DNA of 64,000 nt from Haliotis asinina (taxonomy: Eukaryota > Mollusca > Gastropoda > Lepetellida > Haliotidae). Of this stretch, positions 1 to 56,872 are shown in pieces. A program made the position numbers and the translations under genes. Position 1 is the stretch's first letter; each line of letters starts with the position of its first letter. The notes beneath the pieces were generated by a model that searched no databases, was not told the DNA's origin, and saw nothing but the letters and a program-made list of their open reading frames with translations. The stretch lies in the NCBI RefSeq assembly GCF_037392515.1, contig NC_090288.1, positions 1,488,001 through 1,552,000 on the forward strand, written 5' to 3'.

Positions 1-201
1 TTAGTTTACTCAATAGTTATTGTAGGTCAACCCAAACTGAGTGGGAGGCACAGGTACTGGAGCCCACTCCCACTGAAAGAGGAATATTTCAGGGCGATTT
101 TTTAGCCCTTTCATTTCTCATTTCCTAAATCCTTTAGCTTTTTTTAGCTAAAGAAAGACGACGGATCATCTTCCTGGACATCCAGGTGAATACCTATACC
201 T

Positions 202-582
202 CTAGGCGGAAACACAGCTGCCCGCACTCTCTGTAATACAGTCTTCACACACTCCATACAGTTCTCGCTGGTGCACACGGAAGCCTTGCTGGGAGAAGTC
301 CCTGTCGCTGTCTGTGCTGCTAGAGCTGTGACCCTGTGACAATAAGCCTGACAAGTCTGACCCTGACGAGTCTGGAGTCAGGATCACCCGAAAACCATTT
401 GCATAATTTAATGAGTATGATGATACTTTTAGACGCGTCCAGGTGATAACACGTGACTTATCCCGCGTGAACAGAAACATATTGTTAAATCGTGAGTTCG
501 GGAAATTAGCCAGAGGTATGCCTATACCAACCCACAGACAACACAACATCTGCGTAAAATAAACAAGGAGTTTAATACACAA
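202..582 (-). other. Unrecognised open frame, possible terminal exon
   Basis: A 126-codon open frame that I do not recognise. Its last third is serine/aspartate-rich, then ends in a short cysteine-containing stretch (ELYGVCEDCITESAGSCVSA). A reasonable splice acceptor (ctgactccag) falls inside the frame on the minus strand, at about position 380. The real exon could therefore be only the last ~60 codons of a gene whose other exons lie outside the window or went unseen. No domain was recognised, and chance is an equally good explanation. Confidence 0.2.
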
Positions 583-857
583 CAGTCACAGGATCATTTG
601 CTACGTGATCAGTCAATAATGGAATGATATACAACTAATTACTAGAACACGGTGACATTGCTATCAGCTCTTAAAGTATATAAACATTACATGTAGATTT
701 GTTTACACATATTACATTAATCGTGATACACATTCAAAAGTATACAGTGCAATGTAATTGGTAAATTCACTACGCATCAAGCCAGAGGGCGTTTACACAG
801 ACTACATTGCACACAGTTACAAAACAGCATGTATTCACAACGTAATGCAATAGATAG

Positions 858-1043
858 AATTTACTAGACAGCCACCTCATCCCGCATCCCACCCCCGATT
901 TGTGACTGTCATCTGTATTATATATCTGCTATCGCAGACAATCGCGTTTACAGATTAAACTTATGATAGCGTTGCTATTGTGAACTTGAGATTATGTCAT
1001 TTAGATGGACCAATGCATCGATGGCCAATCGCGAGTACCGATA
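858..1043 (+). repeat. Diverged direct copy of the lysozyme 3' flank
   Basis: This stretch resembles 1602-1760 in the same orientation (shared words include CTGTCATCTGTATTATATAT and GTGAACTTGAGATTATGTCA), with roughly 15% differences and small gaps. Its outer edge (TAGACAGCCACC) also matches, inverted, the far end of the right-hand duplicate near 12980 (GGTGGCTGTTTA). The lysozyme flank was therefore duplicated in tandem as well as inverted. The segment between the copies (1044-1601) holds nothing I can name. Confidence 0.6.
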
Positions 1044-1601
1044 TTGTCACAAACGTCGGAAGAAACTTGCAGATGATTCTTGAGGTACGCTGATGTTCAC
1101 TTGATCTTGAAAGTTGGTTCACTCACTTGATTGTTGGGTTCTAATGGTTGGTGAACAGCTGACATCTTGATGATATTCGGGTTGTTACCGCTTCTGCCTC
1201 TGGTCTCCTGCTTTTGTGATCTATGATGACGGCCGCGCCGACGCTGTCTTTGTCGTCCCTCATGTCAACTACCGGTGCTTTACTGCGTAGCAGACGGTGT
1301 ACGAAGTAATACCCCACATACAGTGCCTGGAGGAGTACCTATAGTGTTGGTACCCGGGGCATTGGTTTGTGGGATCCTCCAGCTGCTCGTCTGTTCCACC
1401 CGGTTCTGTGGTGGATTCCAGGGTTAATTGTCTGTCGATGGGTCGTCTGGTTCCTGGTTCCGATGTTGCCATGTGCGTGGGTTGGTGAGCCGTCATGGCC
1501 ACTTTTGGTCCTCCGCCACCCACCAAGAATGAGCTGAAGTTTCAACTCGCTGGGCAGAGGTACCAGTGGCACAACCAAACCACACAACACACGAGCTTGA
1601 G

Positions 1602-1881
1602 TGAATTTACTAAACAGCGTCTGTCATCTGTATTATATATCTATTCCAGCTATCGCAGATAATCGTGTTTACAAATAAAACTTACGATAATGTTGTTATT
1701 GTGAACTTGAGATTATGTCATTTAGAAGGACCAAGGCATCGATGGCCAGTCGTGAGCATGCCTCGAAGGTACACGTGGCACGCACGTGATTTGACCAGCG
1801 TGAACTACAAACAGCCGTAAAGACAGCTACATGCATTGTACCGTGGTTCTGTAAGCTTTAGAGATACTGGTCACGGATTAA
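1602..1881 (+). repeat. Outer arm of the inverted lysozyme duplication
   Basis: Positions 1621-1881 match the reverse complement of about 12690-12955 at roughly 97% by eye. It lies 3' of the lysozyme gene. At 1881 the match stops and resumes at 4874, so the right-hand copy lacks everything between. The stretch 1882-2503 holds no other recognised feature. Confidence 0.85.
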
Positions 1882-2503
1882 GTCCGACACATACACATAC
1901 CATTATACATTCTCTTCCCACAGAGGTAACTTGTCATATGTTCCGTAGAAAGATATGACAAGTAACTTTCTGGGGGAGAGAATAGTCATTATATAATATT
2001 GGTAAAATATGTCCAATTTCCCGTGTTAATAATATACTGATGAAAGTTTAATGTCCCAAAGGGGCAACCACATGCCGAATCCGCAAATTCTCAGGACTCC
2101 AACGGTAGCCTAAGATCGGATACCATGCATGGTCCCTGCTATGGCACAGCTTGTACGCTGCCCCAGTAGGCTTTATACTGAACATGCACTCTCTCAGTCA
2201 CCCTTGTTCCCTGGGTCTGTTGCTCCTGCGCTACGCTCCAGACAGGCTGTCACTCAATAACTTTGTTACGTGTAATGTAATGTATATCTGTTTTGTCAAT
2301 TCTGGTATTATAATGAGGTGTATTGGTTGCACACTTGGCCCTCATATCCCGACGAGGAATGCTACAATAAAATATCTATAATATACTCACTGGTGATGTC
2401 CATACGGTGATGTACTACACACGCGATGTGCACAAACTGTCGTTTACAGAAGGCCGCCAATTTACATTTTCAAATAAGAGAAACAGGAAATATTTTCACT
2501 GCT

Positions 2504-2509
2504 TTTATT
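2504..2509 (-). terminator. Poly(A) signal of the lysozyme gene
   Basis: AATAAA on the minus strand, about 100 bases beyond the lysozyme stop codon: a normal position for 3'-end formation of this gene. Confidence 0.55.
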
Positions 2510-2610
2510 CAAGAAAGGACACCCCAAACACGCATGAGCCATGTGGACTTGTGAAGTTTGATGACACCGGTGTGGCGCTGTCCGGAGTCGTGAGGTGGCA
2601 GACTGACAGC

Positions 2611-5600
2611 TCAGTAGGTGCATCCGTCCAGGTAGCTGCTGGTCACGGAGCTACACCGAGCACCATAACCGTACCTGTAATGGTAGAAGTTACGGACGAA
2701 ACTGTTTGGTAACTATCACAACTATATATGGCAGGTACGTTAACTATATCACATATGATAACTATAGCAACAACAGGTAACTAACGAGGGATTTCTAGTG
2801 ATTGGTTTAGTGGGTCACTACTACACCCGCTGGTCAGTCATACTCACGAGAAGCCCCATCCTCTATGTTCCCGTCGAAGCTGTTTGATGCAACTGACGTC
2901 ATCACTGATGTCGTTGTTCAGATAGTCTGAGATAAAGAGATGATATAGCATGGTATTTATTACCATAGAACATGAGTGTTCTGCAAGTATCACAGTACCG
3001 ACAAGAAGACAAGAACATTCCCACAGTCCTGGGTAATTACTACTGAACTGAGAGAGGGTTGTCCTACATGACGATACCGTTGTATAAGCCACATGTATAT
3101 TATAATGTGTATATTATGAATCACTAGTATACCGAATTACTGAATAACTGAGTTTGCTTTTACGCCGCTTTTAGCAATATTCCAGCAACACGGCAGGAAC
3201 ATCAGAAACGAGTTTCACACATTGTACACATGTGGGGATTCGAACCCGGGTCTTCAGCGTGACGAGCGAACGCTTTATCCACTTGGCTACCCCGCCGCCC
3301 CAAATATCTGTCGTAACTACATATGACACCAGGTGTTCGTTATAAGACCCAAGTATCCTGCTCCATCGGTGACACCATCTTGCGTACTTGCATAGGCGAG
3401 TCAGCTGTTCACCTGCTTTAGACATATGATTCGTTCAGATGGGATCAATGAAGATTTCAGTTATAGCATAAAACGTTTTGAAAGGATGAGTTTAACCCTG
3501 AACTGTGTAGACCTGAAATGCCTTTATTTTGAAAGCACAACAACATTATCCGATCGTTCCTGGTGTTGTCAATATAATGCTTGCTGTGAGTAGCCTAGTG
3601 GTTAAAGCGTTTGCTTGTCCCAGGTCGATTCTGCACGTGGATACAATACGTGAAGTCCATTTTTGGTGTCTCCTGTCGTGATATTGTTGGAATATTAGTT
3701 CAAAAAGATACAACACTTAACTCTCTCACACGTATACTTTCATAGTCTGTCTCAGGCCTTGAATCACATTATTTCCCTTACTGCCAAGCCCTCTCTGCAA
3801 TCCTAAATAAGCAAGTCTAGATTTCCTCAGGTTCAGGTATCAATCTCTGCTCTTCCTGGGGATCCTTTCCAATTTCTATGGGTTAGTTTATTAATATCAA
3901 AGTGTTATATACATATATATTGAGAGACTATAAGCATTAGTCTACTACATGTACTTTCAATACAATGTTTTACCGGAGCAAGGGTGTCTGCAGCTGTTGT
4001 AGGTTTGTCTACCGTCCTCGGGATCGCAGTTCCATTTGCTGTTGATCTGGAAGAGACCGTAGTCGCTGGAGCCTCCCCTGTTGGTGTTGACTGCCGTCGT
4101 ACGTAGGCTGGACTCGGCGTTTGCCATGCACACCCCTGAGGAGAATTCGGAGGTCAGTTGTGTCCAAACTCTATTCTGAATTTATAGTGATCATCGACGA
4201 TGAGATCGACTGAGTCCACCAAGATCAACACAGTGTGGATGACAGCCCTGCTCAGACACCATCACGGCGTACACAGAGAGAGACCTACATAGTCTTGATG
4301 AGGGCTTACACAGAGTATATTGCAGACCTACATAGATTTGATCAGGGCCTACACAGAGTATATGGCAGACCTACATAGACTTGATCAGGGCCTACACAGC
4401 GTCGATGAGAGTCCTACATAGACTCGATCAGGACCTACACAGCGTTGATGAGAGTCCTACATAGACTTGATCAGGGCCTACACAGCGTTGATGAGAGTCC
4501 TACATAGACTCGATCAGGGCCTACACAGTGTCCATGGGAGACCTTCATAGACTCACCGTCGGAAGAAATCTTATATAGTTTCGATCATTCGATGGCAACC
4601 CTACAGAGAAATGGCTGACTAAATGACAAAATGCACCATATAACAAGACGCAATGAACCTTAGGACGTCCGTGTTTTATTCCTTGTTTCTCATCTTCCTT
4701 GAAAAAAGAATGATTGGATGAATTATTGTAGCATGCCACAGGGTTGATTGGGTTTATTGCCCACTATATAGAGGCATATGCTGTTAATCAGCCAAAAGAA
4801 GACACCTTTCTAAAACACACTGAATAGCTTTATTGCGACAGAAAATCTGCGATTATGAAATTGAAGTAACCGAAAATTAATTCTTGGTCACATAAAAATT
4901 CACAATGTCTGAGATATTGTTCATGAATGGGACTTGGACGTTTCTATTAATGTGTCTATAGGGACTACAGATCATCTGAATATTTGAAGCCTTAATTCGA
5001 GGTGATATAAACTGAATATAAAATTCTCATATTTCGTCTCTCAGCTGCTCCACGTGAGGACAATGTTGACTAGAACATCATAAGTGGTCAAGTAGAGGAG
5101 TCGTCAGTAGATGACAAATCCCCCGGCTCCCACATGTTTGAAAGAACATATCATCTAACAGTTACTTGATGTACTTTTAGACTAAGGTTCGTTTCCATGG
5201 AAGTCATGGAAAATAGAAAATGCCAAATATCAGTTAACAGCAAAAGGCACCACTTCAAGAACTGCCTGACATATTTGCCAAGTTCTGTTGAAAGATGTCA
5301 AATGTCTTTTGAGTTGTGCTCCGGAAACCCATTCCTCATCCCTAAGCGCGAAACGTTTCCACTGAAACCGCCAAAAAAAATAAATCACAAAAACCTCTAA
5401 AAAGCGAAATGCACCACTTTAGGTTCTGATTGATATATCTACCAAGTTTTACAGATAAATACTACACGCGTTTTCAGCTATGCTCTGAAAACGAAGCCCA
5501 CCGCTCCCATTAGACTAAGACCCAAACGTTCCAAAACAAAAAGAAAATAAAAGTTAAAAAAAAATGCCAAGAATCTGTAAATAGCAAAAGACAGAACCAT

Positions 5601-6749
5601 AGGTTCAGTTTATTATACCTACCAATTTTGGACAAAGAATATTAAACGGTCTGTGAGTTATGTTCCGGAAACAAAATGATTACGGAGGGACGGTGGGAGG
5701 GACAGACGGACGGACGAGGCGTCTACAATATCCCCTTGCATTGCATGCCGGGGGGAAATAATGTGGTGCTATCTGTCACGTGCTTTTAAATCCCCTTGAA
5801 GCGTAAGAATTATACTTACAATAGAACTGTTCAGAATCGGATCACTTTCGTTGAAAATCTCCAGGCATAAATATTGCAGTAAGGGAGACCTTGTCACACT
5901 TTCATTGCAAATTGTGATCAAAATGATATCAATGATATTGCTATACATGTATTTATTTAAGTAAATTATAAAGTTGCAAAACTATATTATGCGTTGATTA
6001 GGACAATTAATACTACAAACTAATGTAATAATTACCAGTTTATCTTGTTATGACACATATCATTACAAAGACTGTGACAAATCACAAAGACTCGGTCAGA
6101 AATCATCACGTTTCTGTCACACAATTCACAAAGACTCCACCCTCATTGTAACCAAGTTCCCTGCCAGTGAACATACACACTGGTACGGAATTTAGATGCA
6201 AATTTATTGTCTTTGCAAGGATTCCCAATACATTTTGTGAGTATATATTGATATTAGAATACTGAATAGCATTTTTTTTTCTTTTTCACTTTTTTCATTT
6301 TCTCCCGACCGACCGCCCCAGTCCTGAAACAGTGAGGAGAAACACAGAATTAAGTACGGACGCCCGTAGATGAGGATATTTCTTAACGACGAGTTCATGT
6401 GCATTTGTGGTTGACCAGTTGTACACGAAATCATGTAACCAGTGACTTCATGTACGTGACTTACAGTCATGCGCTTCGTTCCTGGCGACTCCATGCTGAC
6501 TGACCAACTCCCTGGCTAGTTCACACTTTGAGTAGACCTTGCCATCAACTGTAACTGAAATATTCCATAGAAAAGTACGACAACATTGTCAACTACGGTA
6601 ATACACGTATTCCTTACACAAATGTTAGAGCAGCTAGACAGTCAACTACGGTAATACACGTTTTCCTTACACAAACGTTACATATATCATGAATATTTAC
6701 CTGTCATTATGGTAACCGCCAAAAGCGAGAGAATGGTTGTCAATCCCAT
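2611..6749 (-). CDS. LYZ: c-type (GH22) lysozyme, five coding exons, complete
   Basis: Secreted muramidase cutting peptidoglycan between MurNAc and GlcNAc. Minus-strand exons: 6749-6701, 6554-6465, 4135-3974, 2926-2848, 2674-2611 (49, 90, 162, 79, 64 bp; 444 bp, 147 residues plus stop). All introns are GT..AG and the frame is kept. Residues 1-16 plus a few more form a signal peptide (MGLTTILSLLAV...); the mature start resembles KVYSKCELA. All eight family cysteines are present. The catalytic pair is E54 (CMANAES) and D71 (SSDYGLFQIN), spaced 17 as E35/D52 in hen lysozyme; W63 of hen is replaced by N. From memory, the 162- and 79-bp exons, with introns in the WVC tryptophan codon and just after PCS, match vertebrate lysozyme structure. 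An acceptor just before the ATG exon (ctgtcag at 6755-6761) implies an upstream non-coding exon. Introns carry SINEs, a 43-bp tandem repeat and a MITE. Confidence 0.93.
3150..3301 (-). mobile_element. SINE-1 (tRNA-derived) copy
   Basis: On the minus strand it begins GGGGCGGCGGGGTAGCC, with an A-box-like TAGCCAAGTGG and a B-box GGTTCGAATCC, and ends in the shared GCGGCGTAAAA tail. It lies in the lysozyme intron between the 79- and 162-bp exons. Confidence 0.85.
3588..3705 (+). mobile_element. Degraded SINE-1 copy
   Basis: GTAGCCTAGTGGTTAAAGCG, followed by a damaged B-box and the body of the tRNA-headed SINE; it lacks the tail. It lies in the same lysozyme intron, opposite in orientation to the copy at 3150. 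Confidence 0.75.
4270..4545. repeat. 43-bp tandem repeat, about six units
   Basis: Units of the form CCTACATAGACTTGATCAGG + GCCTACACAGCG..., with single-base differences and a few partial units. It sits in the lysozyme intron directly upstream of the 162-bp exon and is absent from the inverted copy. Confidence 0.8.
4874..5110. repeat. Inverted-duplication arm inside lysozyme intron
   Basis: Matches the reverse complement of about 12440-12685 (roughly 80-85% by eye, with words such as GTTGACTAGAACATCATAAG identical). In the right copy this segment is joined directly to the 1881-equivalent, which shows where a block containing the last three exons was lost. Confidence 0.75.
5118..5757. mobile_element. 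Non-autonomous DNA element with short TIRs (CCCCCGGC)
   Basis: Bounded by CCCCCGGC and GCCGGGGG, with a possible AAAT duplication. Inside are three diverged copies of a ~170-190 bp unit (GCACCACTT..., ...GTTATGTTCCGGAAAC), then a (GACG)n tract. It is absent from the equivalent site of the inverted copy near 12.4 kb, so it inserted after the duplication or was lost there. No coding capacity. Confidence 0.55.
5806..6375. repeat. Inner inverted-duplication arm
   Basis: Matches the reverse complement of 11127-11530 (about 94% by eye) and, for its first ~80 bases, of about 12300-12400. It covers the lysozyme intron next to the N-terminal mature-peptide exon. Direct evidence that the locus was copied as an inverted block. 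Confidence 0.85.
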
Positions 6750-6850
6750 CTTTTCTGACAGAAGAAAAAAATGGACAGAATTATATTGTGTAGATTAAAT
6801 CGTTGTTATGCCTTGAATCCGTAGATAATATACAGGTGACGTCCCGGAAA

Positions 6851-6997
6851 GGCGCGATGGGGTAGCCTAGTGGTTAAAGCGTCCACTCACCACGCCAAAT
6901 ACCCGGGTTCGATTCCTAACAAGGATGAGTTTGCCGTGATACTGCTGGAATATTGCTAGAAGCGGCGTAAAACCACACTCACTGACTCACTGACTCA
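6851..6997 (+). mobile_element. SINE-1 copy with full tail
   Basis: GGGGTAGCCTAGTGGTTAAA (A-box side), CCCGGGTTCGATTCC (B-box), then CTGGAATATTGCTAGAAGCG and an (ACTC/ACTG)n tail. It lies just upstream of the lysozyme ATG exon, within the proposed first intron. Confidence 0.9.
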
Positions 6998-7329
6998 CTA
7001 TTAAATATGGAGGTATACATTCACCACCAAACCATGCATTATCATCGAGTTATGAGGATTATAATAATTATTGGTTTCGTGGCTGGACTACAATTACGTA
7101 ATCAAGTCAAGGCAAACCAGAGGTTGATGTTACGAACAAATTATGTGGTTTCCACTGAACCTAGATTTTCGAATCTCTCTTAGCGCTAAGATAGTCGTAA
7201 GTCTATGTGAATATATGGCACTTACGTCTATCTTAATGCTAAGAGGGCCTCAGGGGACCTGGCCTCATATGGTGACGAGTGGCTAAATATTACTTGAAGC
7301 AACTGCTGCTGTTTTGCAAACATTCGCTC

Positions 7330-8150
7330 AGGACAAGACGTTTTAGACAGACAAGCTTCTGAACCATAACATAGGATAAGTGTAACCACTGATCAATATC
7401 TTAAAGAGATCTGAGCAGGAAATATTACCAACATTCCCCTGGAAACCGTTAATTGATAGTATTGCTTGATTTGCCTGAGATGTTAGTACAGTTTCGGCCT
7501 TACTCCAGACAAGCTTAGGAACAAATGTTAAACCTAAGTAACAATAAGATGAAACTACTTCAGTAGTAGTACTTCCTTGTAGTACCATTTCTCATAAGAC
7601 CTTGCGCCCATCCTTTCCCCCTGTCTAAATACAACAACCTTGGTTTTCTTCAAATTTACACACAGTATAAACCAGCATTATTGCAAAATAGTTCTAAAGC
7701 ATTTATCTTCAACTGTAACTGGTTACAGTTATCTGCCTGAGCAGAAACATCATCGGCAAACATTAAGGGATAAAAGTCGTTTACATTACGTGAAATAGAC
7801 ACCCCTATGCCACCTACATCCTCCAGTAAAGTATGTATATGGTTAATGAATGTGATAAACATTTGAGAACTTAATATACAAATCTGGCTGGTACCGATAT
7901 TGCACACAAAGGGCTGAGACAGAGCCCCACTAGTTCTCACACAAGCTGACAGACTGCTGTAACATGGATAAAATATTTACCCGACATGCCAACATGTTTC
8001 AAAGCATTTAAAAGAATATGGTGTTCCAAAGTATCAATTGCTTTAGAAAAACCAACATATAAACAGTAAAATCTCCCATTTCTTTTACATGAATATTTTG
8101 TTGCGCTAGCATTAAGAGTAAGTAAATACTGCAAAACGTAAACTCATAGG
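7330..8150 (-). mobile_element. Non-LTR retrotransposon (LINE) reverse-transcriptase fragment
   Basis: Three minus-strand frames carry pieces of a non-LTR reverse transcriptase in the right order. First is LYVGFSKAIDTLEHHILLNA (YVDFSKAFD-type block), next LMFADDVSAQADN (the FADD catalytic box), then LKKTKVVVF and a stretch like SYCYLGLTFVPKLVWSK. Frameshifts and stops separate the pieces. No endonuclease, ORF1, 3' tail or target duplication is visible. I would place it only loosely among Jockey/CR1-like elements. It sits between the two lysozyme copies. Confidence 0.75.
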
Positions 8151-8422
8151 TAGTACTTTTACATGTAACTTTTCGAATTTGAATGATTGGTGTCTATATA
8201 ATCAGTATACCTATGGTGAACGCTGTCTGCAAACATTGTCATTGAGGACAACTTGCAAAAACGCACCAAAATCTGTTTTCCTCAATAAATGCAATAAATT
8301 GTGAACGGGAAGAAATTCATGCGTTTCCTTTTACACGCACTTTCCATGCATCATTTCCAATAAAAGTCAGGTGTTTCAATGCTCGTGCGACAGTTGACAA
8401 CCTTAAATTTGGTTTTAAAGTA

Positions 8423-9088
8423 ACGCCTAGGCTTACTGAGACTCAGCACAACAATGCGACTGGCCATTTGTAGGTTGGGGAGTCTCAGTCTGCGATTGCA
8501 AGGCAACTGGATATGTCACAGAGCACCATAGCAAGACATTTCATCGGTACCAGCAGCAAGGGTCAACACGTGATCGCCCCAGGTCAGGGGCGACACTTGC
8601 AGAACAGGTTCATTACTGCATTTGTTTATGAAAGTGTCATGGTTTGGGCTGGCATCTCATACAGTGACAGGTCAGATCCAGATCTCATTCAGGTCCAGGG
8701 CAATTAGACAGCTTGACGTTACCATGATGAAATCATCAGGCCTCATGCCCTTCCTTTCATGAATCGACAGAACGTCATTTTTCAGTATCATAGCGCTCGG
8801 ACGCATGCAGCAAGAATAACCAGGGATTTCCTTACCCAGAACAATGTTCAGGTTCTTGACTGGCCCTCATGATCACTGGATCTTATCCCTATTGAACATT
8901 TGTGGGACGAACTGGATCGTCGTGTGCGACAGCGTAACCCTCAATCACAGACGTTACTTGCTCTGTTTGTGGCCTTGAGGGAAGAGTACCAACTCATTCC
9001 CAGGCACTTCACCCAGAGTCTGGTTCAGTCAATGGGACACCGATGCCTAGCAACCATTGATGCTAATGGTGGCCACACAAGATACTGA
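8423..9088 (+). pseudogene. Degenerate Tc1-family transposase
   Basis: Relic of an IS630/Tc1-type transposase. Recognisable parts in order: an N-terminal helix-turn-helix region (PRLTETQHNN, then GESQSAIARQLDMSQSTIAR), a jump straight to VMVWAGIS, then NVIFQYHSARTHAARITRDF (the second catalytic aspartate block is altered). Next are SLDLIPIEHLWDELDRRVR (third catalytic block) and a terminal ANGGHTRY that is common in this group. The start ATG reads ACG, the linker between DNA-binding and catalytic parts is largely deleted, and several in-frame stops are present. I could not find convincing terminal inverted repeats around it. Dead copy. Confidence 0.8.
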
Positions 9089-9411: not shown

Positions 9412-10702
9412 CGAGGGGATGTCAATAAGTTTTGAGCCTTGAGCATTTTTCATACCCAGGTGTCACAGCCTATGGTACGACATTGAACCTTGGGGTGGAG
9501 CTGATGTGATATACATATATATAAGTTTTGGTATCCTACTCACATTGCTCACATTGACAGAAAGAGACCCTCCTCACGGCAGTGAAAATGAATAAAATTG
9601 AGTATAAAGCAGTAATTAAGTTTTTAGCTCTTGAAGGAAACCCGGCGAAGAACATAAAAGAAAGGCTTTCAGCAGTTTATGGGAAGTCTTTCCCTTCATC
9701 TGCTACCATCAAACGATGGGTCAATGAATTTAAGCATGGTAGAGAGAGTCTTGAAGATGACTCCCGTCCAGGTCGCCCAACAACAAGCACTAGTCAGGAA
9801 AACATTGGCAGAGTGCATAGACTTGTGCTGGAAAATCGTCGAATCAAACTCCGCGAGTTAGAGGAGAGAACAGGCTTTTCACACGGATCCATCGAGACAA
9901 TTCTTCATGAACATCTCGTCATGTCTAAGGTGTGCGCAAGATTTGTGCCAAGAATGCTTACAGATGAAATGAAGCAAACAAGGATCACCATAAGCAAGTC
10001 CATGCTAACCAGATACAACAAGAATCCAGATGCTTTTCACTTTAGGTTAGTAACCTGTGATGAAACCTGGATCCACCACTATGATCTTGAGAGCAAACAA
10101 GAATCCATGGAATGGAAACATGTCACTTCTCCCAGGACCAAAACGTTCAAAGCCTCCAGATCAGTGCAGAAGGTAATGGCGACAGTCTTCTGGGATAGCA
10201 AAGGCGTCGTCCACATAGATTACTTACCAAAAGGAAGAACAATGAATGGGGAATATTACGCTAACTTGTTGAGGCAAGTGCGACAGTCAATCAAGGAGAA
10301 GCGCCGGGGCAAGATCAGACGTGGTATTCTTCTACATCAAGACAGTGCTCCAGTACACACCTCTCGCGTTGCAGCCGCTGCTGTCTAGGAATGCGGGTAC
10401 GAAATCTTGCCGCATCCCCCCTACTCTCCAGACCTGACACCAAGTGATTACCATCTGTTCCCAAATCACAAGAAACACTTGCGTGGTCGTAGATTTCAGG
10501 ATGATAATGAGCTTATTGCTACTAGTGAGGCTTGGTTTGAGGACCAAAATGGCGCCCTCTACAGAGATGGCATTAGCGCCTGGCAGAAAAGATGGAACAA
10601 GTGTCTTGACTCACAAGGGGACTATGTTGAAAAATAAATGTGGTTCATACCAATATTTTGTGTTTTTCTATGCAAGGCTCAAAACTTATTGACATCCCCT
10701 CG
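9412..10702 (+). mobile_element. mariner transposon, near-complete
   Basis: A 1291-bp element with perfect 30-bp terminal inverted repeats (9412-9441 and 10673-10702, starting CGAGGGGATGTCAATAAGTT) flanked by the TA duplications 9410-9411 and 10703-10704. Identical repeats and an almost open transposase frame point to recent insertion. It lies in the spacer between the intact and decayed lysozyme copies. Confidence 0.97.
9588..10637 (+). pseudogene. mariner (DD34D) transposase with one nonsense codon
   Basis: Cut-and-paste transposase. The first ATG is at 9588; read through, the frame is 349 residues, the normal mariner length. It has an N-terminal paired helix-turn-helix with the GRPTTSTS linker between the two helices, and VPRMLT (the WVPHEL-like motif). 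The first aspartate is in TCDETWIHH, the second in LLHQDSAPVH, and YSPDLTPSDYH carries the third. Spacing between the second and third is 34 residues, the mariner signature. The only visible lesion is an in-frame TAG at codon 267 (10386-10388), between the second and third aspartates; the frame continues unchanged to a TAA at 10635. Such a protein would lack the third catalytic residue unless the stop is read through. Subfamily not assigned. Confidence 0.95.
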
Positions 10703-26522: not shown

Positions 26523-28676
26523 CTGTCAGTGTGGAACAAGTCCTGCGTGTAGCACTGTCAGTGTGGAACAAGTCCTGCGTGTAGCACTGTAAGTGTGGAA
26601 CAAGTCCTGCGTGTACCACTGTCAGTGTGGAACAAGTAATGCTTGTAGCACTGTGAGTGTGGAACAAGTCCTGCGTGTAGCACTGTCAGTGTGGAACAAG
26701 TCCTTCGTGTAGCGCTGTCAGTGTGGAACAAGTCCTGCTTGTAGCACCGTCAGTGTGGCACAAGTCCTGCTTGTAGCACTGTCAGTGTGGAACAAGTCCT
26801 GCTTGTAGCACTGTCAGTGTGGAACAAGTCCTGCTTGTAGCGCTATCAGTGTGGAACAAGTCCTGCTTGTAGCACTGTCAGTGTGGAGCACGTCCTGCGT
26901 GTAGCACTGTCAGTGTGGAACAAGTCCTGCTTGTAGGACTGTCAGTGTGGAACAAGTCCTGCGTGTACCACTGTCAGTGTGGAACAAGTAATGCTTGTAG
27001 CACTGTCAGTGTGGAACAAGTCCTGCATGTAGCACTTTCAGTGTGGAACAAGTCCTGCGTGTAGCACTGTCAGTGTGGAACAAGTCCTGCGTGTAGCGCT
27101 GTCAGTGTGGAACAAGTCCTGCGTGTAGCGCTGTCAGTGTGGAACATGTCCTGCTTGTAGCACTGTCAGTGTGGAACAAGTCCTGCTTGTAGCACTGTCA
27201 GTGTGGAGCAAGTCCTGCTTGTAGCACTGTTAGTGTGGAACAAGTCCTGCATGTAGCGCTGTCAGTGTGGAACAAGTCCTGCGTGTAGCGCTGTCAGTGT
27301 GGAACAAGTCCTGCATGTAGCACTGTCAGTGTGGAACAAGTCCTGCTTGTAGCACTGTCAGTGTGGAACAAGTCCTGCGTGTAGCACTGTCAGTGTGGAA
27401 CAAGTCCTGCGTGTAGCACTGTCAGTGTGGAACAAGTCCTTCGTGTAGCGCCGTCAGTGTGGAACAAGTCCTGCTTGTAGCACCGTCAGTGTGGCACAAG
27501 TCCTGCTTGTAGCACTGTCAGTGTGGAACAAGTCCTGCTTGTAGCACTGTCAGTGTGGAACAAGTCCTGCGTTTAGCGCTGTGAGTGTGGAACAAGTCCT
27601 GCTTGTAGCACTGTCAGTGTGGAACAAGTCCTGCGTGTAACACTGTGAGTGTGGAACAAGTCCTGCATGTAGCACTGTCAGTGTGGAACAGGTCCTGCGT
27701 GTAGCACTGTGAGTGTGGAACAAGTCCTGCATGTAGCGCTGTCAGTGTGGAACAAGTCCTGCATGTAGCACTGTCAGTGTGGAACAAGTCTTGCGTGTAG
27801 CGCTGTCAGTGTGGAACAAGTCCTGCTTGTAGCACTGTCAGTGTGGAACAAGTCCTGCGTGTAGCACTGTCAGTGTGGAACAAGTCCTGCGTGTAGCACT
27901 GTCAGTGTGGAACAAGTCCTGCGTTTAGCGCTGTGAGTGTGGAACAAGTCCTGCTTGTAGCACTGTCAGTGTGGAACAAGTCCTGCGTGTAACACTGTGA
28001 GTGTGGAACAAGTCCTGCATGTAGCACTGTCAGTGTGGAACAGGTCCTGCGTGTAGCACTGTGAGTGTGGAACAAGTCCTGCATGTAGCGCTGTCAGTGT
28101 GGAACAAGTCCTGCATGTAGCACTGTCAGTGTGGAACAAGTCTTGCGTGTAGCGCTGTCAGTGTGGAACAAGTCCTGCTTGTAGCACTGTCAGTGTGGAA
28201 CAAGTCCTGCGTGTAGCACTGTCAGTGTGGAACAAGTCCTGCGTGTAGCGCTGTCAGTGTGGAACAAGTCCTGTGTGTAGCACTGTCAGTGTGGAACAAG
28301 TCCTGAGTGTAGCACTGTCAGTGTGGAACAAGTCCTGCGTGTAGCACTGTCAGTGTGGAACAAGTCCTGCGTTTAGCGCTGTGAGTGTGGAACAAGTCCT
28401 GCTTGTAGCACTGTCAGTGTGGAACAAGTCCTGCGTGTAACACTGTGAGTGTGGAACAAGTCCTGCTTGTAGCGCTGTCAGTGTGGAACAAGTCCTGCGT
28501 GTAGCGCTGTGAGTGTGGAACAAGTCCTGCGTGTAGCACTGTCAGTGTGGAACAAGTCCTGCGTGTAGCGCTGTGAGTGTGATACAAGTCCTGCGTGTAG
28601 CACTGTCAGTGTGGAACAAGTCCTGCGTGTAGCGCTGTGAGTGTGGAACAAGTCCTGCTTGTAGCGCTGTGAGTGC
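26523..28676. repeat. 32-bp minisatellite array, about 67 units, with higher-order duplication
   Basis: Unit TGTCAGTGTGGAACAAGTCC + TGCGTGTAGCAC (32 bp), held in phase over 2.15 kb. Variants at a few fixed positions (CGTG/CTTG/CATG; CAC/CGC; TCA/GAG) make units recognisable. A block is repeated at a distance of 352 bp, exactly 11 units (for example the GCGTTTAGCG marker at 27569 and 27921), and a related marker recurs 14 units later (28369). Open frames of 60-66 codons on the minus strand are repeat artefacts. Confidence 0.97.
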
Positions 28677-36002: not shown

Positions 36003-37067
36003 TCAGCACAACAGGTTGAGGTAGTCGCGCAGATACTCCGGCATATTGAGACGCTGAAGTCCCCTGGGGAGCTGGTCTCTCCCCAGCAACACCTCCCTCA
36101 CCGTGCACCGACACAGGTGTTTCAGCGAGCAGGGTCGGGTGTAGAATGGGGGTATGTAGTCGGTGACCTCGTTGTTCACGTAGTACACGTGTCTGGCCGG
36201 TTTGTCTAGGATCCTTTGTCCCTCGAACCGTAACGTGAGCCGCGGCACCGTCCGTAGACAGTACATGAAGCATTCCACGAGGGTGTCGACGCTGCCGAGT
36301 CTGAAGCCGACGCTGGTGGTGGTAATGGTGGGGAAGAGGTGGAAGCTGCTGAACATACGGAGGATGTACTCGAGCGGGTGGCCTTCCGCCGTGGCACCGT
36401 GTTGCAAGAGGAGAAGCACAGCTTTTGGCTTCATGTTGACGATGGCGAGAAGCAATGGTGAAGCGCGGAGGTGGGAGCGGTTCACATCCACGTCGGGTGG
36501 CAGAGTCGGGTATGCAATGGGTAGATCTAAATACAGGCATGAATCTCCCCGAATCATTTCCCGCCACATGACGCTCTGTGGACCATTAAAGACACAGTTT
36601 TTAAGGCTCGGGTCACTGAACTCTATCGTAAAACCAGAACATACCTCCAAAAGATGTTCCGTCTTTTCTGGAATTCCGGCATGCGTTTCACTGAAATCAA
36701 ACAAATCTCTCAAAAATATTCCAAAATCGACCCCTCGACTGTAAAAGAGAAGTTGCTTTAGAAGTTTCCGTGGAAGGTTGTTAGCGACATCTGCCTTGTT
36801 GCCGTAGCAACACAGCCCCAAGCCAAGGTGAAGGACGAGCCAACAGAAGTATCGCTTCCTGTCGTCACTACTCTTACACTTGACATATTGGAGAATGTCT
36901 TCAACGACTCTGGTCAAAGTGATGTCCCCAGTCTCTATTCGGACACACAATGTCTTTCCAATCACCTCACATTGTTTCTCTGGCGATGGGACTTTGTTGT
37001 GGAGACTTCGTCGCACTGTTTCAAAGCTGTTATGTCTCAATGCCCAGTAGTTCGTGAGGCGTTCCAT
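36003..37067 (-). CDS. Ankyrin-repeat and SOCS-box protein, ASB17-like, intronless
   Basis: Predicted substrate adaptor of a Cullin5-Elongin B/C ubiquitin ligase. I take the ATG at 37067: context GGCGGCATGG is an excellent initiation site and gives 354 residues. The frame stays open to an ATG at 37199 (398 residues), but that ATG has a poor context and would put coding sequence over two CRE palindromes. Residues 200-229 form one clear ankyrin repeat (SPLLLAIVNMKPKAVLLLLQ then HGA); the preceding helical region is less clear. Residues 312-354 are a SOCS box: BC-box SLKHLCRCTVREVL, then LNMPEYLRDYLNLLC in the Cul5-box position. The end (DYIPPFYTRPCSLKHLC to DYLNLL) and ankyrin placement recall vertebrate ASB17 from memory; orthology is not proven. 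No introns; no canonical AATAAA seen nearby downstream. Confidence 0.88.
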   Translation of the reverse strand: MERLTNYWALRHNSFETVRRSLHNKVPSPEKQCEVIGKTLCVRIETGDITLTRVVEDILQYVKCKSSDDRKRYFCWLVLHLGLGLCCYGNKADVANNLPRKLLKQLLFYSRGVDFGIFLRDLFDFSETHAGIPEKTEHLLEVCSGFTIEFSDPSLKNCVFNGPQSVMWREMIRGDSCLYLDLPIAYPTLPPDVDVNRSHLRASPLLLAIVNMKPKAVLLLLQHGATAEGHPLEYILRMFSSFHLFPTITTTSVGFRLGSVDTLVECFMYCLRTVPRLTLRFEGQRILDKPARHVYYVNNEVTDYIPPFYTRPCSLKHLCRCTVREVLLGRDQLPRGLQRLNMPEYLRDYLNLLC

Positions 37068-37100
37068 GCCGCCTTCTCTGACTGGGCGGCAACAATAGCG

Positions 37101-37125
37101 TGACGTCATGATTGTTGTGACGTCA
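37101..37125. promoter_or_regulatory. Pair of perfect CREs upstream of the ASB gene
   Basis: TGACGTCA at 37101-37108 and 37118-37125, 17 bp centre to centre, 34-58 bp upstream of the preferred ATG. Such sites bind CREB/ATF or related bZIP factors. The position suggests promoter-proximal or 5'-UTR elements and cAMP-responsive or testis-type control, which is inference. Confidence 0.5.
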
Positions 37126-37269
37126 TCAGTATTGTTACGTCTCGGGTTAAACTGATGACAAAATGTGCGAGGAACCGCAAATGTCATATTTACAGGCATG
37201 GACGGACGGAACAGTTTCTCTCTTTGGTACGTAGCATGTACTACAGACGTTTAAGCGCGAGCGCGTGTG

Positions 37270-40080: not shown

Positions 40081-40680
40081 CTACACGACGACAGTGGCAT
40101 CCGTGACGTAGAAGCCATCGGGGCCCCTCTCGGACCCCATCCGACACAGTCTGACGGCATCAACATGCTCCTCACCAAAAACGACATCGGTGTCAGCGTT
40201 GTACACGGTGTTGGGGAAATGTGTTATCCCGGTCTTGTGGGTGAAAGATTTCGTCACTTTCGCTATTGTCATGTGAGGGCGGAACTCCCTGTCCAGCCAA
40301 CAAATCCCTTGGGCGTCTAGAAACGAAACGATCACAGACCGGAGTACTGATAGCTCACGTGCATAGGCAACGTTACCGTACACGACAACGTCGCCAAACG
40401 TACCGATTCCTTTCACTTTTAACGTTGTCTTGTTTTGCATAGACCGGATGTTCTCCGCGGCACTGTTGAGAGCCTCCACCGCTGTATGGAGCTCGGTCTG
40501 TGTCTGAATAGAGAGATGGCACAGGCTGACGTGGAGATCATCCCTGGATGAACACACTGTCAAGTAGTTGGCATTTTCCTTAATCATTCTTTCCCGAACT
40601 CTGTCGAACGTCTTTTTGATTCCGTCGTCTGTGACACGAATGGCAACAAAGTAGTTGGGGCTGATAGTCCTGGAGGCCAT
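40081..40680 (-). CDS. AKAP7/LENG9-type 2H phosphoesterase domain protein
   Basis: 199 residues, a single LigT-like 2H domain of the AKAP7 nuclear-localisation-domain type. The two signature histidines are in H50-V-S52 (DDLHVSL) and H136-M-T138 (RPHMTIAKV). The fold opens with PNYFVAIRVTDDGIKK and closes with the RMGSERGPDGFYV strand. Members of this superfamily bind or cleave cyclic and 2'-5' phosphodiesters in RNA or nucleotides; the substrate here is unknown. The start ATG (gagATGG) is in good context and lies 7 bases after a splice acceptor (catgtttcag at 40688-40697), so an upstream non-coding exon is likely. It is clearly paralogous to the second half of the 58937-61765 gene (shared NYFVAIR, HMTIAKV and DGFY blocks), on the same strand 18 kb away. 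Confidence 0.9.
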   Translation of the reverse strand: MASRTISPNYFVAIRVTDDGIKKTFDRVRERMIKENANYLTVCSSRDDLHVSLCHLSIQTQTELHTAVEALNSAAENIRSMQNKTTLKVKGIGTFGDVVVYGNVAYARELSVLRSVIVSFLDAQGICWLDREFRPHMTIAKVTKSFTHKTGITHFPNTVYNADTDVVFGEEHVDAVRLCRMGSERGPDGFYVTDATVVV

Positions 40681-40699
40681 CTCATATCTGAAACATGAA

Positions 40700-41789
40700 A
40701 TTCTTTTTTTTCACAAAAAAAATTTTCTTTTTGTCTTTTCGCTAAATCGGTAACTACTCTTAATATGTTCATAATAATTATACTAGTTTGACTTTCCTGT
40801 GAAGATCCGAGTTGAATTGGTCTTCACCAACTTCTGCTGCCATTATTCAACCAACGGAATAGCTAGTCAGGTTCACTGGCGTCATTGGTGCATATCACCG
40901 TATCCCCACCGCCTAGATCGACACTCGTGATATCAATCATCTTATTTTCTAATCTAAAATTTACACACACCATGGGTGTAATGTATAAAGCCTCTAGTGG
41001 TGCCCTACGGCGGGAGTTTGATAAGGGTCACTTACTATACACGTCACCGACTGGTCAGATCAATCCACTTGGTTCTTGGAAGTCGGAGCAGTTCTACGTA
41101 CTGTACTCGCACACTACCAAAAAGCAACTGAACATGGACAAACATACACTGGAGTACATAAACACTGCGGCTATAGTTTCCACCGAAGTCCGTGGCTGAT
41201 CCTGAAACTGAAAGTAGACTTCTCCGTCTGTACTCCGACAAACCTGACAGCCTGGTTCCCTGGGTCTGTTGCGCTTGTGCTAACGCTCCCACACGCAACA
41301 GACCCAGGGAAGCAGGCTACCAAACTGATGGCAAGTGTCACGGGATACTCGTCAGCGCCTATAATTAGGGCGTTGTGTCATCACTTATTTGTCAATGTCA
41401 CAGATGCCTGGTTGCATCATATATCCTATTGTCGTGTCGTGTCCTTCCTCATCTTAATGATGTTCCTTGTCGTGCTGAGGAAGTTGGCGACGTTTTTCCC
41501 AGAACACTACATCACAGTTGTGTAATATGTACTGATAATAACTGCTGATTAAACATTAGTGTCGAAACCACGTGACGGATGTGGGATATTTATGACCTGT
41601 AGGTTACACGACAAAGCAAATGAATTCGCAAAGGCTCTGCAGCTTACATAATTGTTTCATAAATATATATGCAGTGAGCCTGTGTTATCTGGAACACCCT
41701 TATGTCGACATACAGTTTTAGACAGATGTCAGAGAGTAGTGATAACTTCAGTAAGTATTTGTACTCGCATATAACCCAAATTACAGTTT
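40700..41789. other. No gene recognised; 18-bp perfect inverted repeat
   Basis: TTCCCTGGGTCTGTTGCG (41256-41273) and its exact complement (41294-41311) are separated by 20 bp. The left arm and spacer resemble 2208-2245, so this is a dispersed repeat. The open frame 41076-41525 runs through it and is not convincing. Confidence 0.6.
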
Positions 41790-42065: not shown

Positions 42066-42225
42066 TCAGTGAGTGAGTGGGTGAGTTTTACGCCGCTTTT
42101 AGCAATAGTCTAGCAATATCACGGCAGGAGATACCATCAATGGGCTTTACACATTGTGCCCAAGTAGGGAATTGAGCAAGTCTTCGGCGTGGCGAGCGAC
42201 CACTTGACCCACGCGGCCAGGAACA
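42066..42225 (-). mobile_element. SINE-1 copy
   Basis: Tail (GTGAGTGAGTGGGTGAGTTT, TACGCCGCTTTTAGC) at the left, eroded head at the right. Confidence 0.82.
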
Positions 42226-49866: not shown

Positions 49867-51161
49867 TAGTCTGGTTCATAATTATTGAGAATTTTTCTTC
49901 TTACTTTGAGCTATCCTAACACCTCAACTGATTCACTGATACTTAAAACTAAGTAATGGTATAAGGGAGGTAACTCATCTTGACCTACTGAGTATAGTAC
50001 AATTAGAGTTACCTCCCCTGAATTTGTAGCAGACGTCATTTTCCTCAGCACTGTCAACAATGTCTGCTGAGGATAAAAGAAGGTTGATTTTTGAGTTGTG
50101 TAATCAAGGAATTGATGATGTAAATACATTGGCAGAGAGAACAGGAACTCCTCTTTCTACTGTGTATAGGATTAGGAAGAATTTTAAAGAGGGAAAGGAT
50201 TTGGGGCACCAGAAAGGAGCAGGGAGACCCAGAAAATTGGACTTCTCAGATCGCGTCCGGCTGGGAATTTTAGCGTCTAAAAAGCAAAGGGCAAGCATCT
50301 CCAACATCAGGTATGAAATGATAGAAAGGGGATCAACAGTTGTATCAAAATCTACAGTTAGAAGAAATTTGATTGATCTTGGATGGGAGAAAAAGACTGG
50401 AATTCCTTCTCCTCTCATGAAACAAGAACATAAAGACAGGCGTGTTGAGTGGTGTTTGGCACATGAAAACTTTGACTGGGAAAATGTGATTTTTACTGAT
50501 GAAAGCTCAATATGGGTATATCCCAATAATGTGAAAATATGGACAAAGTCTGCGTCAGCACCGTTGTATCGACGACCTAAATACAGCCCAAAGTTTCATG
50601 TATGGGGAGGGATATCCTTATTAGGAACGACCCCGCTGTGTGTGTTTGAGGGAAATCTGACAAGTCAACGCTACACTAACATATTAGATAATTTTCTCCT
50701 TCCATGTGCACGTGTTTTATGGAAATGACTGGATTTTGCAGCAAGATAATGATCCTAAACACACCGCAAAACATGCCAAGCGGTGGTTTCAGGAGAAAAA
50801 TGTGACTGCATTACCATTTCCTGCATATAGTCCTGACTTAAATCCCATTGAGAACATTTGGGGGATGATGAAGGAATGTGTGAATCAAAAGGGGTTGACA
50901 AAAATTGAAGACATGAAGAGAGAAGTGGTCCGATACTGGGACAGCATAACTCACGAGACACTAACCTCTCTGATAGGAAGTATGCCTACCCGTCTTAGAC
51001 TGTGCCGTGAAGCTCAAGGAGACTTGATAAAATATTAAATTGTTACCTACACAACATGAAAAGGTCAGTTCACTTTCACAATACATTCAATTTTATCTGA
51101 TTTGTTCTAGTTTAATAATATGAAATGCTTTAGCTATTCTCAATAATTTTGAACCATACTG
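49867..51161 (+). mobile_element. Tc1-like transposon
   Basis: A 1295-bp element with 26-bp inverted repeats (49867-49892, 51136-51161; three mismatches; ...TTATTGAGAAT core) and TA duplications at 49865-49866 and 51162-51163. It carries one transposase gene with a single frameshift. Confidence 0.93.
50060..51038 (+). pseudogene. Tc1-type (DD34E) transposase with one frameshift
   Basis: The ATG at 50060 opens a frame with an N-terminal helix-turn-helix (SAEDKRRLIFELCNQGIDDV, then STVYRIRKNF), the GAGRPRKL linker and a second DNA-binding domain. The catalytic core follows: VIFTDESS (first D), HVWGGIS, LQQDNDPKHTA (second D) and YSPDLNPIENIWG (E). The D-to-E spacing is 34 residues. The frame shifts by one base within the TTTT at 50715-50718, just before YGNDW; one extra T explains it. 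The second frame then runs to a TAA at 51038. About 325 residues in all, normal for the family. Apart from that it has no stops, so it died recently, or the shift is an assembly error in a homopolymer. Confidence 0.92.
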
Positions 51162-52049: not shown

Positions 52050-53474
52050 CTGGATGATATCACTGGAGTACTGTTGAACTAAGTATGTATACAGACAAGG
52101 AGTGAGCCGACATGGTTGTGGTCCCAGAAACTGTAATCGTATGGTCCACCCTCAAGCTTTCAAAGATGACAACAACAGTACCTCCACAGTTGTCTTTAAA
52201 AACAGAAGTCAATAAAGTGCACGTTGACAAACAGAATATATTGTTCAATCAAAATCTCCATGGTTGAACAATTTTGACTTAGTTGTATACAGTCTTCGAA
52301 ATAACCACTAGCTCAGAAGCCCAATGCTAGTTAAAACTTCCACAGGCTAGCAAAAATAGAATCATGGTAGCCTGGTTCGCTAGTGAAAATTTTCAGTCTG
52401 TGTAAAACTCTCTTCATGGCCTTTCTTCATCAACATTTCCTAATTCTTTAGTATTTTTTGTTTTGTTTTCAAGCCGACAATTCTGAGCTTATTGAAACTA
52501 CATACAAGTCTGAAATCCTTACCCATTTCTAAGACGTGTCATGATAAGAAGTGACTACACTAAGAAATAAACACCAGTCAAAATACCCCACGCATCCTTC
52601 ATCATTTGCAAATGGTGCGATGGTGTCATTTCCCTCCTGATTGACTGAGAGAGAGCATTCTGGACTGTCGCTGTCCTAGCAGTTATAAACCTGAAATTTG
52701 AGCTGAGTCATCTGGTCCTGATAATTTGTGTAAATGTTGATGTTTAACACTAAACTTTATAACAGAAATAATAAATGACTACTTTTGAGAGTTTTGTAGC
52801 TTTATTTGGTTTGGCTAGTAAATTTTCATTCAGGCTAGTAAGTTTTAAAACATCATAGCCTGGTTTGCTAGTGATCCTGAAAAATTATTTCATGCATAAC
52901 AATCTCCAGCTGACAATTATGTATAAGTTCCAGACATCTGATTGTCCATCTTGCCCCACCATACAACTTGCATGAGGCATATACTACACCCCTCTCAGCA
53001 GGTAATCAATGTCTGTACAAAGGCCTTGCTTGAATTTACAAAATCACAGTTACTATGAATATTAACATATTTCCACAGTTTATTGCCAAGGGGACTTATT
53101 GTAAAACTACAACAGATGAAGTAAGCTGGTTTGTACACACAGTCAGGACACATGGCAACAGGAGGCGGATACAGATAGCACTGGTAGAACAATATAAGCT
53201 GCACACTTCACTCCAGGGTAATACTGTCTGATGAATGCTTCTTTGAAGCAATGTCTTTATCACACCACCATGGTAAATGTAGAAAATATAATACTTTATT
53301 CGAGAGATCACTACCAAGACATGAAAAAAAAATAGTGTCTCCCTCTAAACAGGTTTTTATAAATCAGTGAAATATACGCTGACAAGCTTAAACCGGCCAT
53401 AAAAAATGATTAATTATGTTTGAATGTGCAAATGATTCAATGTATAAAATAGTTTAAAGAAATTGGTGAAAGTT
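52050..53474. other. No gene recognised
   Basis: Minus-strand frames at 52995-53317 and AATAAA-like signals exist, but no domain is recognisable. CTAGTAAA(T/G)TTT words near 52815-52860 are a small local duplication. Confidence 0.4.
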
Positions 53475-56400
53475 GGTGAAAAAAACAAAATTGAAGTGTT
53501 ATACATGATAGTAAGATAACAGGACAACACTGAGCTCCTCACTCCTGGAGGAAGGGATCATGGTGAAAAAAATAAAATTGAAGTGTTATACATGATAGTA
53601 AGATAACAGGACAACACTGAGCTCCTCACTCCTGTAGGAAGGGATCATGGTGAAAAAAACAAAATTGAAGTGTTATACATGATAGTAAGATAACAGGACA
53701 ACACTGAGCTCCTCACTCCTGTAGGAAGGGATCATGGTGAAAAAAACAAAATTGAAGTGTTATACATGATAGTAAGATAACAGGACAACACTGAGCTCCT
53801 CACTCCTGTAGGAAGGGATCATGGTGAAAAAAACAAAATTGAAGTGTTATACATGATAGTAAGATAACAGGACAACACTGAGCTCCTCACTCCTGGAGGA
53901 AGGGATCATGGTGAAAAAAACAAAATTGAAGTGTTATACATGATAGTAAGATAACAGGACAACACTGAGCTCCTCACTCCTGTAGGAAGGGATCATGGTG
54001 AAAAAAACAAAATTGAAGTGTTATACATGATAGTAAGATAACAGGACAACACTGAGCTCCTCACTCCTGGAGGAAGGGATCATGGTGAAAAAAACAAAAT
54101 TGAAGTGTTATACATGATAGTAAGATAACAGGACAACAATGAGCTCCTCACTCCTGTAGGAAGGGATCATGGTGAAAAAAACAAAATTGAAGTGTTATAC
54201 ATGATAGTAAGATAACAGGACAACACTGAGCTCCTCACTCCTGGAGGAAGGGATCATGGTGAAAAAAACAAAATTGAAGTGTTATACATGATAGTAAGAT
54301 AACAGGACAACACTGAGCTCCTCACTCCTGTAGGAAGGGATCATGGTGAAAAAAACAAAATTGAAGTGTTATACATGATAGTAAGATAACAGGACAACAC
54401 TGAGCTCCTCACTCCTGTAGGAAGGGATCATGGTGAAAAAAACAAAATTGAAGTGTTATACATGATAGTAAGATAACAGGACAACACTGAGCTCCTCACT
54501 CCTGGAGGAAGGGATCATGGTGAAAAAAACAAAATTGAAGTGTTATACATGATAGTAAGATAACAGGACAACACTGAGCTCCTCACTCCTGTAGGAAGGG
54601 ATCATGGTGAAAAAAACAAAATTGAAGTGTTATACATGATAGTAAGATAACAGGACAACACTGAGCTCCTCACTCCTGGAGGAAGGGATCATGGTGAAAA
54701 AAACAAAATTGAAGTGTTATACATGATAGTAAGATAACAGGACAACACTGAGCTCCTCACTCCTGGAGGAAGGGATCATGGTGAAAAAAACAAAATTGAA
54801 GTGTTATACATGATAGTAAGATAACAGGACAACACTGAGCTCCTCACTCCTGGAGGAAGGGATCATGGTGAAAAAAACAAAATTGAAGTGTTATACATGA
54901 TAGTAAGATAACAGGACAACACTGAGCTCCTCACTCCTGGAGGAAGGGATCATGGTGAAAAAAACAAAATTGAAGTGTTATACATGATAGTAAGATAACA
55001 GGACAACACTGAGCTCCTCACTCCTGGAGGAAGGGATCATGGTGAAAAAAACAAAATTGAAGTGTTATACATGATAGTAAGATAACAGGACAACACTGAG
55101 CTCCTCACTCCTGGAGGAAGGGATCATGGTGAAAAAAACAAAATTGAAGTGTTATACATGATAGTAAGATAACAGGACAACACTGAGCTCCTCACTCCTG
55201 GAGGAAGGGATCATGGTGAAAAAAACAAAATTGAAGTGTTATACATGATAGTAAGATAACAGGACAACACTGAGCTCCTCACTCCTGGAGGAAGGGATCA
55301 TGGTGAAAAAAACAAAATTGAAGTGTTATACATGATAGTAAGATAACAGGACAACACTGAGCTCCTCACTCCTGGAGGAAGGGATCATGGTGAAAAAAAC
55401 AAAATTGAAGTGTTATACATGATAGTAAGATAACAGGACAACACTGAGCTCCTCACTCCTGGAGGAAGGGATCATGGTGAAAAAAACAAAATTGAAGTGT
55501 TATACATGATAGTAAGATAACAGGACAACACTGAGCTCCTCACTCCTGGAGGAAGGGATCATGGTGAAAAAAACAAAATTGAAGTGTTATACATGATAGT
55601 AAGATAACAGGACAACACTGAGCTCCTCACTCCTGGAGGAAGGGATCATGGTGAAAAAAACAAAATTGAAGTGTTATACATGATAGTAAGATAACAGGAC
55701 AACACTGAGCTCCTCACTCCTGGAGGAAGGGATCATGGTGAAAAAAACAAAATTGAAGTGTTATACATGATAGTAAGATAACAGGACAACACTGAGCTCC
55801 TCACTCCTGGAGGAAGGGATCATGGTGAAAAAAACAAAATTGAAGTGTTATACATGATAGTAAGATAACAGGACAACACTGAGCTCCTCACTCCTGGAGG
55901 AAGGGATCATGGTGAAAAAAACAAAATTGAAGTGTTATACATGATAGTAAGATAACAGGACAACACTGAGCTCCTCACTCCTGGAGGAAGGGATCATGGT
56001 GAAAAAAACAAAATTGAAGTGTTATACATGATAGTAAGATAACAGGACAACACTGAGCTCCTCACTCCTGGAGGAAGGGATCATGGTGAAAAAAACAAAA
56101 TTGAAGTGTTATACATGATAGTAAGATAACAGGACAACACTGAGCTCCTCACTCCTGGAGGAAGGGATCATGGTGAAAAAAACAAAATTGAAGTGTTATA
56201 CATGATAGTAAGATAACAGGACAACACTGAGCTCCTCACTCCTGGAGGAAGGGATCATGGTGAAAAAAACAAAATTGAAGTGTTATACATGATAGTAAGA
56301 TAACAGGACAACACTGAGCTCCTCACTCCTGGAGGAAGGGATCATGGTGAAAAAAACAAAATTGAAGTGTTATACATGATAGTAAGATAACAGGACAACA

Positions 56401-56868: not shown

Positions 56869-56872
56869 GCGA

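Follow-up and report, generated by a model that had tools for sequence, protein, structure and literature searches.

Two questions are raised by this locus: does its minus strand encode a complete c-type lysozyme in five short exons, as a sequence-only reading had claimed, and do the positions of the introns bear on the age of the classic lysozyme gene layout? In the current study the window, i.e. the whole stretch of 64,000 nucleotides, was analysed by domain and structure searches, by alignment to known lysozymes and by spliced protein-to-DNA alignment. We conclude, with very little doubt, that the locus is an intact animal c-type (GH22) lysozyme gene which would encode a secreted enzyme and whose four introns, with one exception, are probably ancestral. 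Good support for the central claim, that the c-type lysozyme gene is complete, comes from the reading frame, the Pfam and PDB matches, the alignment to hen lysozyme and the spliced alignment, each of which is described below.

Gene model

When joined from their coordinates, the five exons on the minus strand are in frame over 444 nt, corresponding to 147 codons and a TGA stop, while the predicted introns display GT at 4/4 donors and AG at 4/4 acceptors. The exon lengths are 49/90/162/79/64 bp, and the coordinates that had been put forward, along with the eight cysteines, E54 and D71, proved to be correct. The features of the locus, in the direction of the gene, are as follows:

6755..6774, minus strand: acceptor-like pyrimidine tract (12/13 pyrimidines) ending in CAG just 5' of the ATG
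6701..6749, minus strand: coding exon 1, 49 bp; carries the ATG and the larger part of the predicted signal peptide
6555..6700, minus strand: predicted intron 1, 146 bp, phase 1, in codon 17; without counterpart in the vertebrate layout
6465..6554, minus strand: coding exon 2, 90 bp; carries the remainder of the predicted signal peptide and, from KVYSKC on, the start of the mature protein with the first of the cysteines
4136..6464, minus strand: predicted intron 2, 2329 bp; splits W47 (hen W28) in phase 1
3974..4135, minus strand: coding exon 3, 162 bp; carries both catalytic acids (E54, D71) as well as cysteines 49, 83, 95 and 99
2927..3973, minus strand: predicted intron 3, 1047 bp; splits D101 (hen A82) in phase 1
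2848..2926, minus strand: coding exon 4, 79 bp; carries cysteine 113 and a stretch resembling a calcium loop
2675..2847, minus strand: predicted intron 4, 173 bp; splits S127 (hen W108) in phase 2
2611..2674, minus strand: coding exon 5, 64 bp; carries the last two cysteines (134, 145) and the TGA stop
2504..2509, minus strand: AATAAA, likely polyadenylation signal, starting 102 bases past the stop

The four donors rank between the 95.9th and the 99.7th percentile among all GTs of the strand, the highest rank being that of the exon 1 donor (CAG/GTAAAT, the slash marking the exon boundary). The acceptor at 6554 is weak, with 7/13 pyrimidines, a level reached by half of the strand's AGs, and the remaining three acceptors are stronger (9-11/13 pyrimidines). 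The acceptor-like site upstream of exon 1, which is strong by pyrimidine count and has its final G at 6755, 6 bases before the ATG, may represent the end of a 5'-UTR intron, and 'five exons' is therefore better worded as 'five coding exons'. The claim of a complete five-exon gene thus stands as regards the frame, the GT-AG boundaries and the full PF00062 domain, but the number five is safe for coding exons only.

The gene product would be a secreted precursor, in which a signal peptide of approximately 21 residues precedes a 126-residue mature enzyme with KVYSKC at its N-terminus. The mature start was placed at K22 by alignment to residue 1 of horse lysozyme, and the N-terminus preceding it is hydrophobic by eye. 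Four disulfides in the hen pattern would hold the mature enzyme, in which Glu54 (hen E35) is predicted to act as the general acid together with Asp71 (hen D52), presumably cleaving the N-acetylmuramic acid to N-acetylglucosamine bond in bacterial peptidoglycan. The role of such an enzyme may lie in defence or digestion.

Family membership and conserved residues

The joined protein matched the Pfam c-type lysozyme family PF00062 over profile positions 1-123 of 123, with an E-value of 5.3e-28 and a score of 98.2 bits (curated cut-off, 27 bits), and the GH22 membership on which the proposal depended is thereby borne out over the full domain. A second, weaker Pfam match to a lysozyme-like domain (PF18896, 8.4e-08) overlaps the first. 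Exon 3 by itself matched PF00062 at 50.5 bits (3.2e-13), while exons 2, 4 and 5, taken singly and as whole codons only, matched no Pfam family at E 0.1; comparison of the scores of exon 3 and of the joined protein indicates that joining the exons contributes approximately 48 bits. A sequence search of the PDB returned 279 distinct sequences at E <=0.001, the best at 5.6e-24, and the best 60 of these 279 matches are all named lysozyme.

Alignment to hen lysozyme gave identity at 45/125 aligned residues. The cysteines of the joined protein (27, 49, 83, 95, 99, 113, 134 and 145) align, 8/8, with hen cysteines 6, 30, 64, 76, 80, 94, 115 and 127, and both catalytic acids are likewise aligned (E54 with hen E35, D71 with hen D52), so that the residues singled out in the sequence-only reading all coincide with those of the hen enzyme. 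Hen Q57, N59 and W62 are also retained, while W63 is replaced by N and W108 by S; to judge from these replacements, substrate binding may be different from that of the hen enzyme. The calculated pI of the 126-residue mature protein is 6.5.

An alternative reading is a family member that is not an enzyme, of the alpha-lactalbumin or sperm lysozyme-like type, or a calcium-binding lysozyme of altered role. In its favour, the calcium loop of horse milk lysozyme is aligned with residues 101-DYLNNDISDD-110. Of the three Asp residues that serve as side-chain ligands, two are present (D109 and D110), the third being N104. Horse milk lysozyme (2eql) is furthermore the second-best PDB match, and the milk isozyme entries 2cwi and 2z2e are within the best nine; these milk lysozymes bind calcium. 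The best PDB match, 6ukc, in contrast lacks this pair of Asp residues in the aligned loop. Alpha-lactalbumin has lost the catalytic Glu35, whereas the corresponding E54 is present here, as is the second catalytic acid, which argues against a loss of enzyme activity. Milk lysozymes moreover illustrate that calcium binding and catalysis can coexist. A non-enzymatic or functionally altered protein is regarded as unlikely, and an active lysozyme is the preferred reading of the locus.

Independent spliced alignment

Bases 1-9000 of the window were searched by spliced protein-to-DNA alignment, for which only the query protein, BLOSUM62 and a generic preference for splice sites were supplied, the previously proposed junctions being withheld. 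Hen and horse lysozymes served as queries, both in mature form without signal peptide, and junction 6701/6554 was consequently outside the reach of the method. The minus strand scored 186.6 with the hen query and 213.3 with the horse query, as against 39.0 and 34.2, respectively, for the plus strand, and four of four base-shuffled sequences, aligned with the horse query only, gave 34.0-35.0. Chance or artefact is ruled out by the family score together with these controls, which remain at background.

Junctions 6465/4135 and 3974/2926 were returned exactly with either query, while junction 2848/2674 was recovered with neither: the hen alignment exits at donor 2848 but passes over 2674 in favour of a weak acceptor at 1405, and the horse alignment ends at 2859, short of the donor. 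Of the four junctions proposed, two were thus reproduced to the base, but 2848/2674 was missed save for its donor with the hen query. Owing to this, exon 5 rests on the Pfam match, which extends to residue 145, on the last two cysteines, on the stop and on the AATAAA at 2509-2504. Exon 1 is based on the ATG, the open frame, the hydrophobic stretch seen by eye and the strong donor.

Intron layout and its age

The introns of the chicken lysozyme gene interrupt codons 28, 82 and 108, and its exons 2 and 3 measure 162 and 79 bp. The three introns within the domain of the present gene map to hen codons 28, 82 and 108 with phases 1, 1 and 2, and thereby match this vertebrate-type layout. The junctions at hen codons 28 and 82 were those recovered independently by spliced alignment, while at codon 108 the donor alone was found, and with the hen query only. 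The gene as a whole has five coding exons in place of four, codon 17 being split by a further intron, of phase 1.

The literature confirms the layout in part. Human lysozyme-like genes have four coding exons, with intron locations and phases identical to those of lysozyme c and lactalbumin, and the genes of other vertebrates fit a comparable arrangement in four exons, with the exception of one processed pseudogene (PMC3141428); the exon count and the sharing of positions and phases within the family are confirmed by this source, but not the codon numbers. Four exons and three introns are likewise given for the lysozyme superfamily in PMC7565966. In Asian seabass the lysozyme exons measure 157, 158, 80 and 171 bp according to PMC3820614, and the internal pair (158 and 80 bp, versus 162 and 79 bp here) is one codon shorter and its boundary would be one base off, i.e. 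near but not identical. A search of the full-text literature for exact vertebrate lysozyme exon sizes of 162 bp and 79 bp, or for codons 28-82, gave nothing usable, and in the available text of a goldfish paper (PMC7013994) the word 'exon' occurs only within the reference list.

As an alternative, molluscs and vertebrates might each have acquired these three introns separately and by coincidence at identical codons, in which case the layout would be silent on ancestry. Parallel intron gains are known in principle. The c-type lysozyme gene of a planthopper is described as having two exons only (PMC3616906), from which it follows that the layout is not retained in all animals, and which can be read in favour of independent gain. 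Against such a scenario stands the agreement of three sites in position and phase: with the chicken positions given above as targets, the chance of three random introns striking three given sites is approximately 1e-7 if any nucleotide of the mature coding region may be hit, or approximately 1e-4 if one site in ten is usable. The exon sequences flanking the three introns (GACT/G, TCCG/A and TCTC/G) are also not of the AG/G type, the exon context favoured for intron insertion. Independent gain is thus considered improbable.

Common ancestry of the introns is likely to be the best reading, if the chicken introns do lie at these codons. Three of the four introns would then probably have been inherited from the protostome-deuterostome common ancestor, and the signal-peptide intron would be either a later gain or an intron lost in vertebrates. 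On balance it appears quite probable that the 28/82/108 layout was fixed in that ancestor and is unchanged here, that certain arthropods, the planthopper among them, lost introns and that the gastropod added the signal-peptide intron. The earlier suggestion that the layout predates the mollusc-vertebrate split therefore holds in that the introns of the window map to codons 28, 82 and 108, but it depends on the chicken positions given above and is qualified by the extra intron. For the dating of the classic lysozyme introns the finding supplies a single observation, and the same cuts in a protostome, if true, would make these introns very old. The chicken lysozyme gene was reportedly used by Jung et al. 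in 1980 to argue, as their title indicates, that exons encode functional units.

Integrity and copy number

That the locus is a pseudogene, or a copy which is not expressed, might be entertained given that the acceptor at 6554 is weak and that the last exon was missed by spliced alignment, but it is highly improbable in view of 147 codons that are open over five exons, GT-AG boundaries at all four introns, the retention of every one of the eight cysteines and of both catalytic acids, and an AATAAA downstream.

The possibility of a second lysozyme copy within the window was rejected by tblastn with the joined protein, in which no other lysozyme-like stretch was found in the 64 kb (all other matches at E >=3.1). 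Relatives were also sought with a 72-residue piece of the protein: in viral contigs 6 pattern matches were obtained, 0 of which were confirmed, and in prokaryote genome contigs 39, again with 0 confirmed, neither the viral nor the prokaryote result saying much about an animal gene.

Other features of the window

Several repeats were observed in the window. A 43-bp tandem array of 6.4 copies (4278-4553) lies in intron 2 of the lysozyme gene, approximately 140 bases upstream of exon 3. The core of a dispersed repeat, of a pattern typical of abalone DNA, occurs at 6934-6971 (minus strand) and 42087-42124 (plus strand), each copy with 2 mismatches to the pattern (0.00 expected), and approximately 185 bases separate the former copy from the ATG of the lysozyme gene, which lies downstream of it. 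No exact match to the core was found in viral or prokaryote genome contigs. A tRNA-like stretch adjoins the core, as judged by eye only; a tRNA scan and an Rfam family scan of the window returned none. Two satellite arrays are present, one at 26523-28675 (32-bp unit, 67.3 copies, 92% matches) and one, very homogeneous, at 53474-56874 (87-bp unit, 39.1 copies, 99% matches).

Remains of a mariner-type transposase were detected at 9558-10385 on the plus strand (PF01359, 8.1e-25). Tc-type transposase-like matches at 50030-51035 (plus strand) are all under the cut-offs, the frame at 50030-50725 being overlapped by that at 50688-51035, and a reverse-transcriptase match at 7659-7976 (minus strand, 0.0056) is also under its cut-off.

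Three further frames, all stop-to-stop and on the minus strand, carry recognisable domains. That at 40084-40710 (209 residues) contains an AKAP7-type 2'-5' RNA ligase-like (2H phosphoesterase) domain (PF10469, 6.8e-31) with AKAP7 as its best solved relative (5.7e-16) and with two HxS/T motifs visible by eye (DLHVSL and RPHMTI). A second AKAP7-type 2H domain (4.6e-31) is situated at the end of a 413-residue frame at 58940-60178, which also has a weak RWD match, under its cut-off, near its start. The 415-residue frame at 36006-37250 ends in a SOCS box (PF07525, 2.4e-09) and appears ankyrin-like by eye further up, where no ankyrin family was matched at E 0.1.

Comparison with known lysozymes

This study provides a complete gene model for a gastropod c-type lysozyme, the enzyme itself being ordinary. 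A full-text search, by which subscription papers are mostly not covered, found no exon structure of a gastropod or abalone c-type lysozyme. Among the closest known systems is the c-type lysozyme of the abalone Haliotis discus hannai (ADR70995.1; Ding et al. 2011, as cited in PMC3688608), for which 146 residues, a bacteriolytic recombinant protein and expression mainly in the mantle are reported; it is a gastropod c-type lysozyme of 146 versus 147 residues here, the comparison being by description only. A clam c-type lysozyme is also cited there. The c-type lysozyme of Mytilus galloprovincialis is similarly of molluscan origin but differs in its length of 154 residues (PMC3688608), and the main text of that paper contains neither 'intron' nor 'exon' and thus no Mytilus gene structure to compare. 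Abalone and mussel c-type lysozymes have thus already been published (PMC3688608), and the gene described here joins them.

Among the well-characterised GH22 enzymes, hen and horse milk lysozymes resemble the present protein in the cysteine pattern, the catalytic acids and the mature start. The hen gene is further alike in having introns at the same codons, but is unlike it in the absence of a signal-peptide intron, in a pI of 9.3 for the enzyme as opposed to 6.5 here, and in the possession of W63 and W108, both of which are replaced in the mollusc protein.
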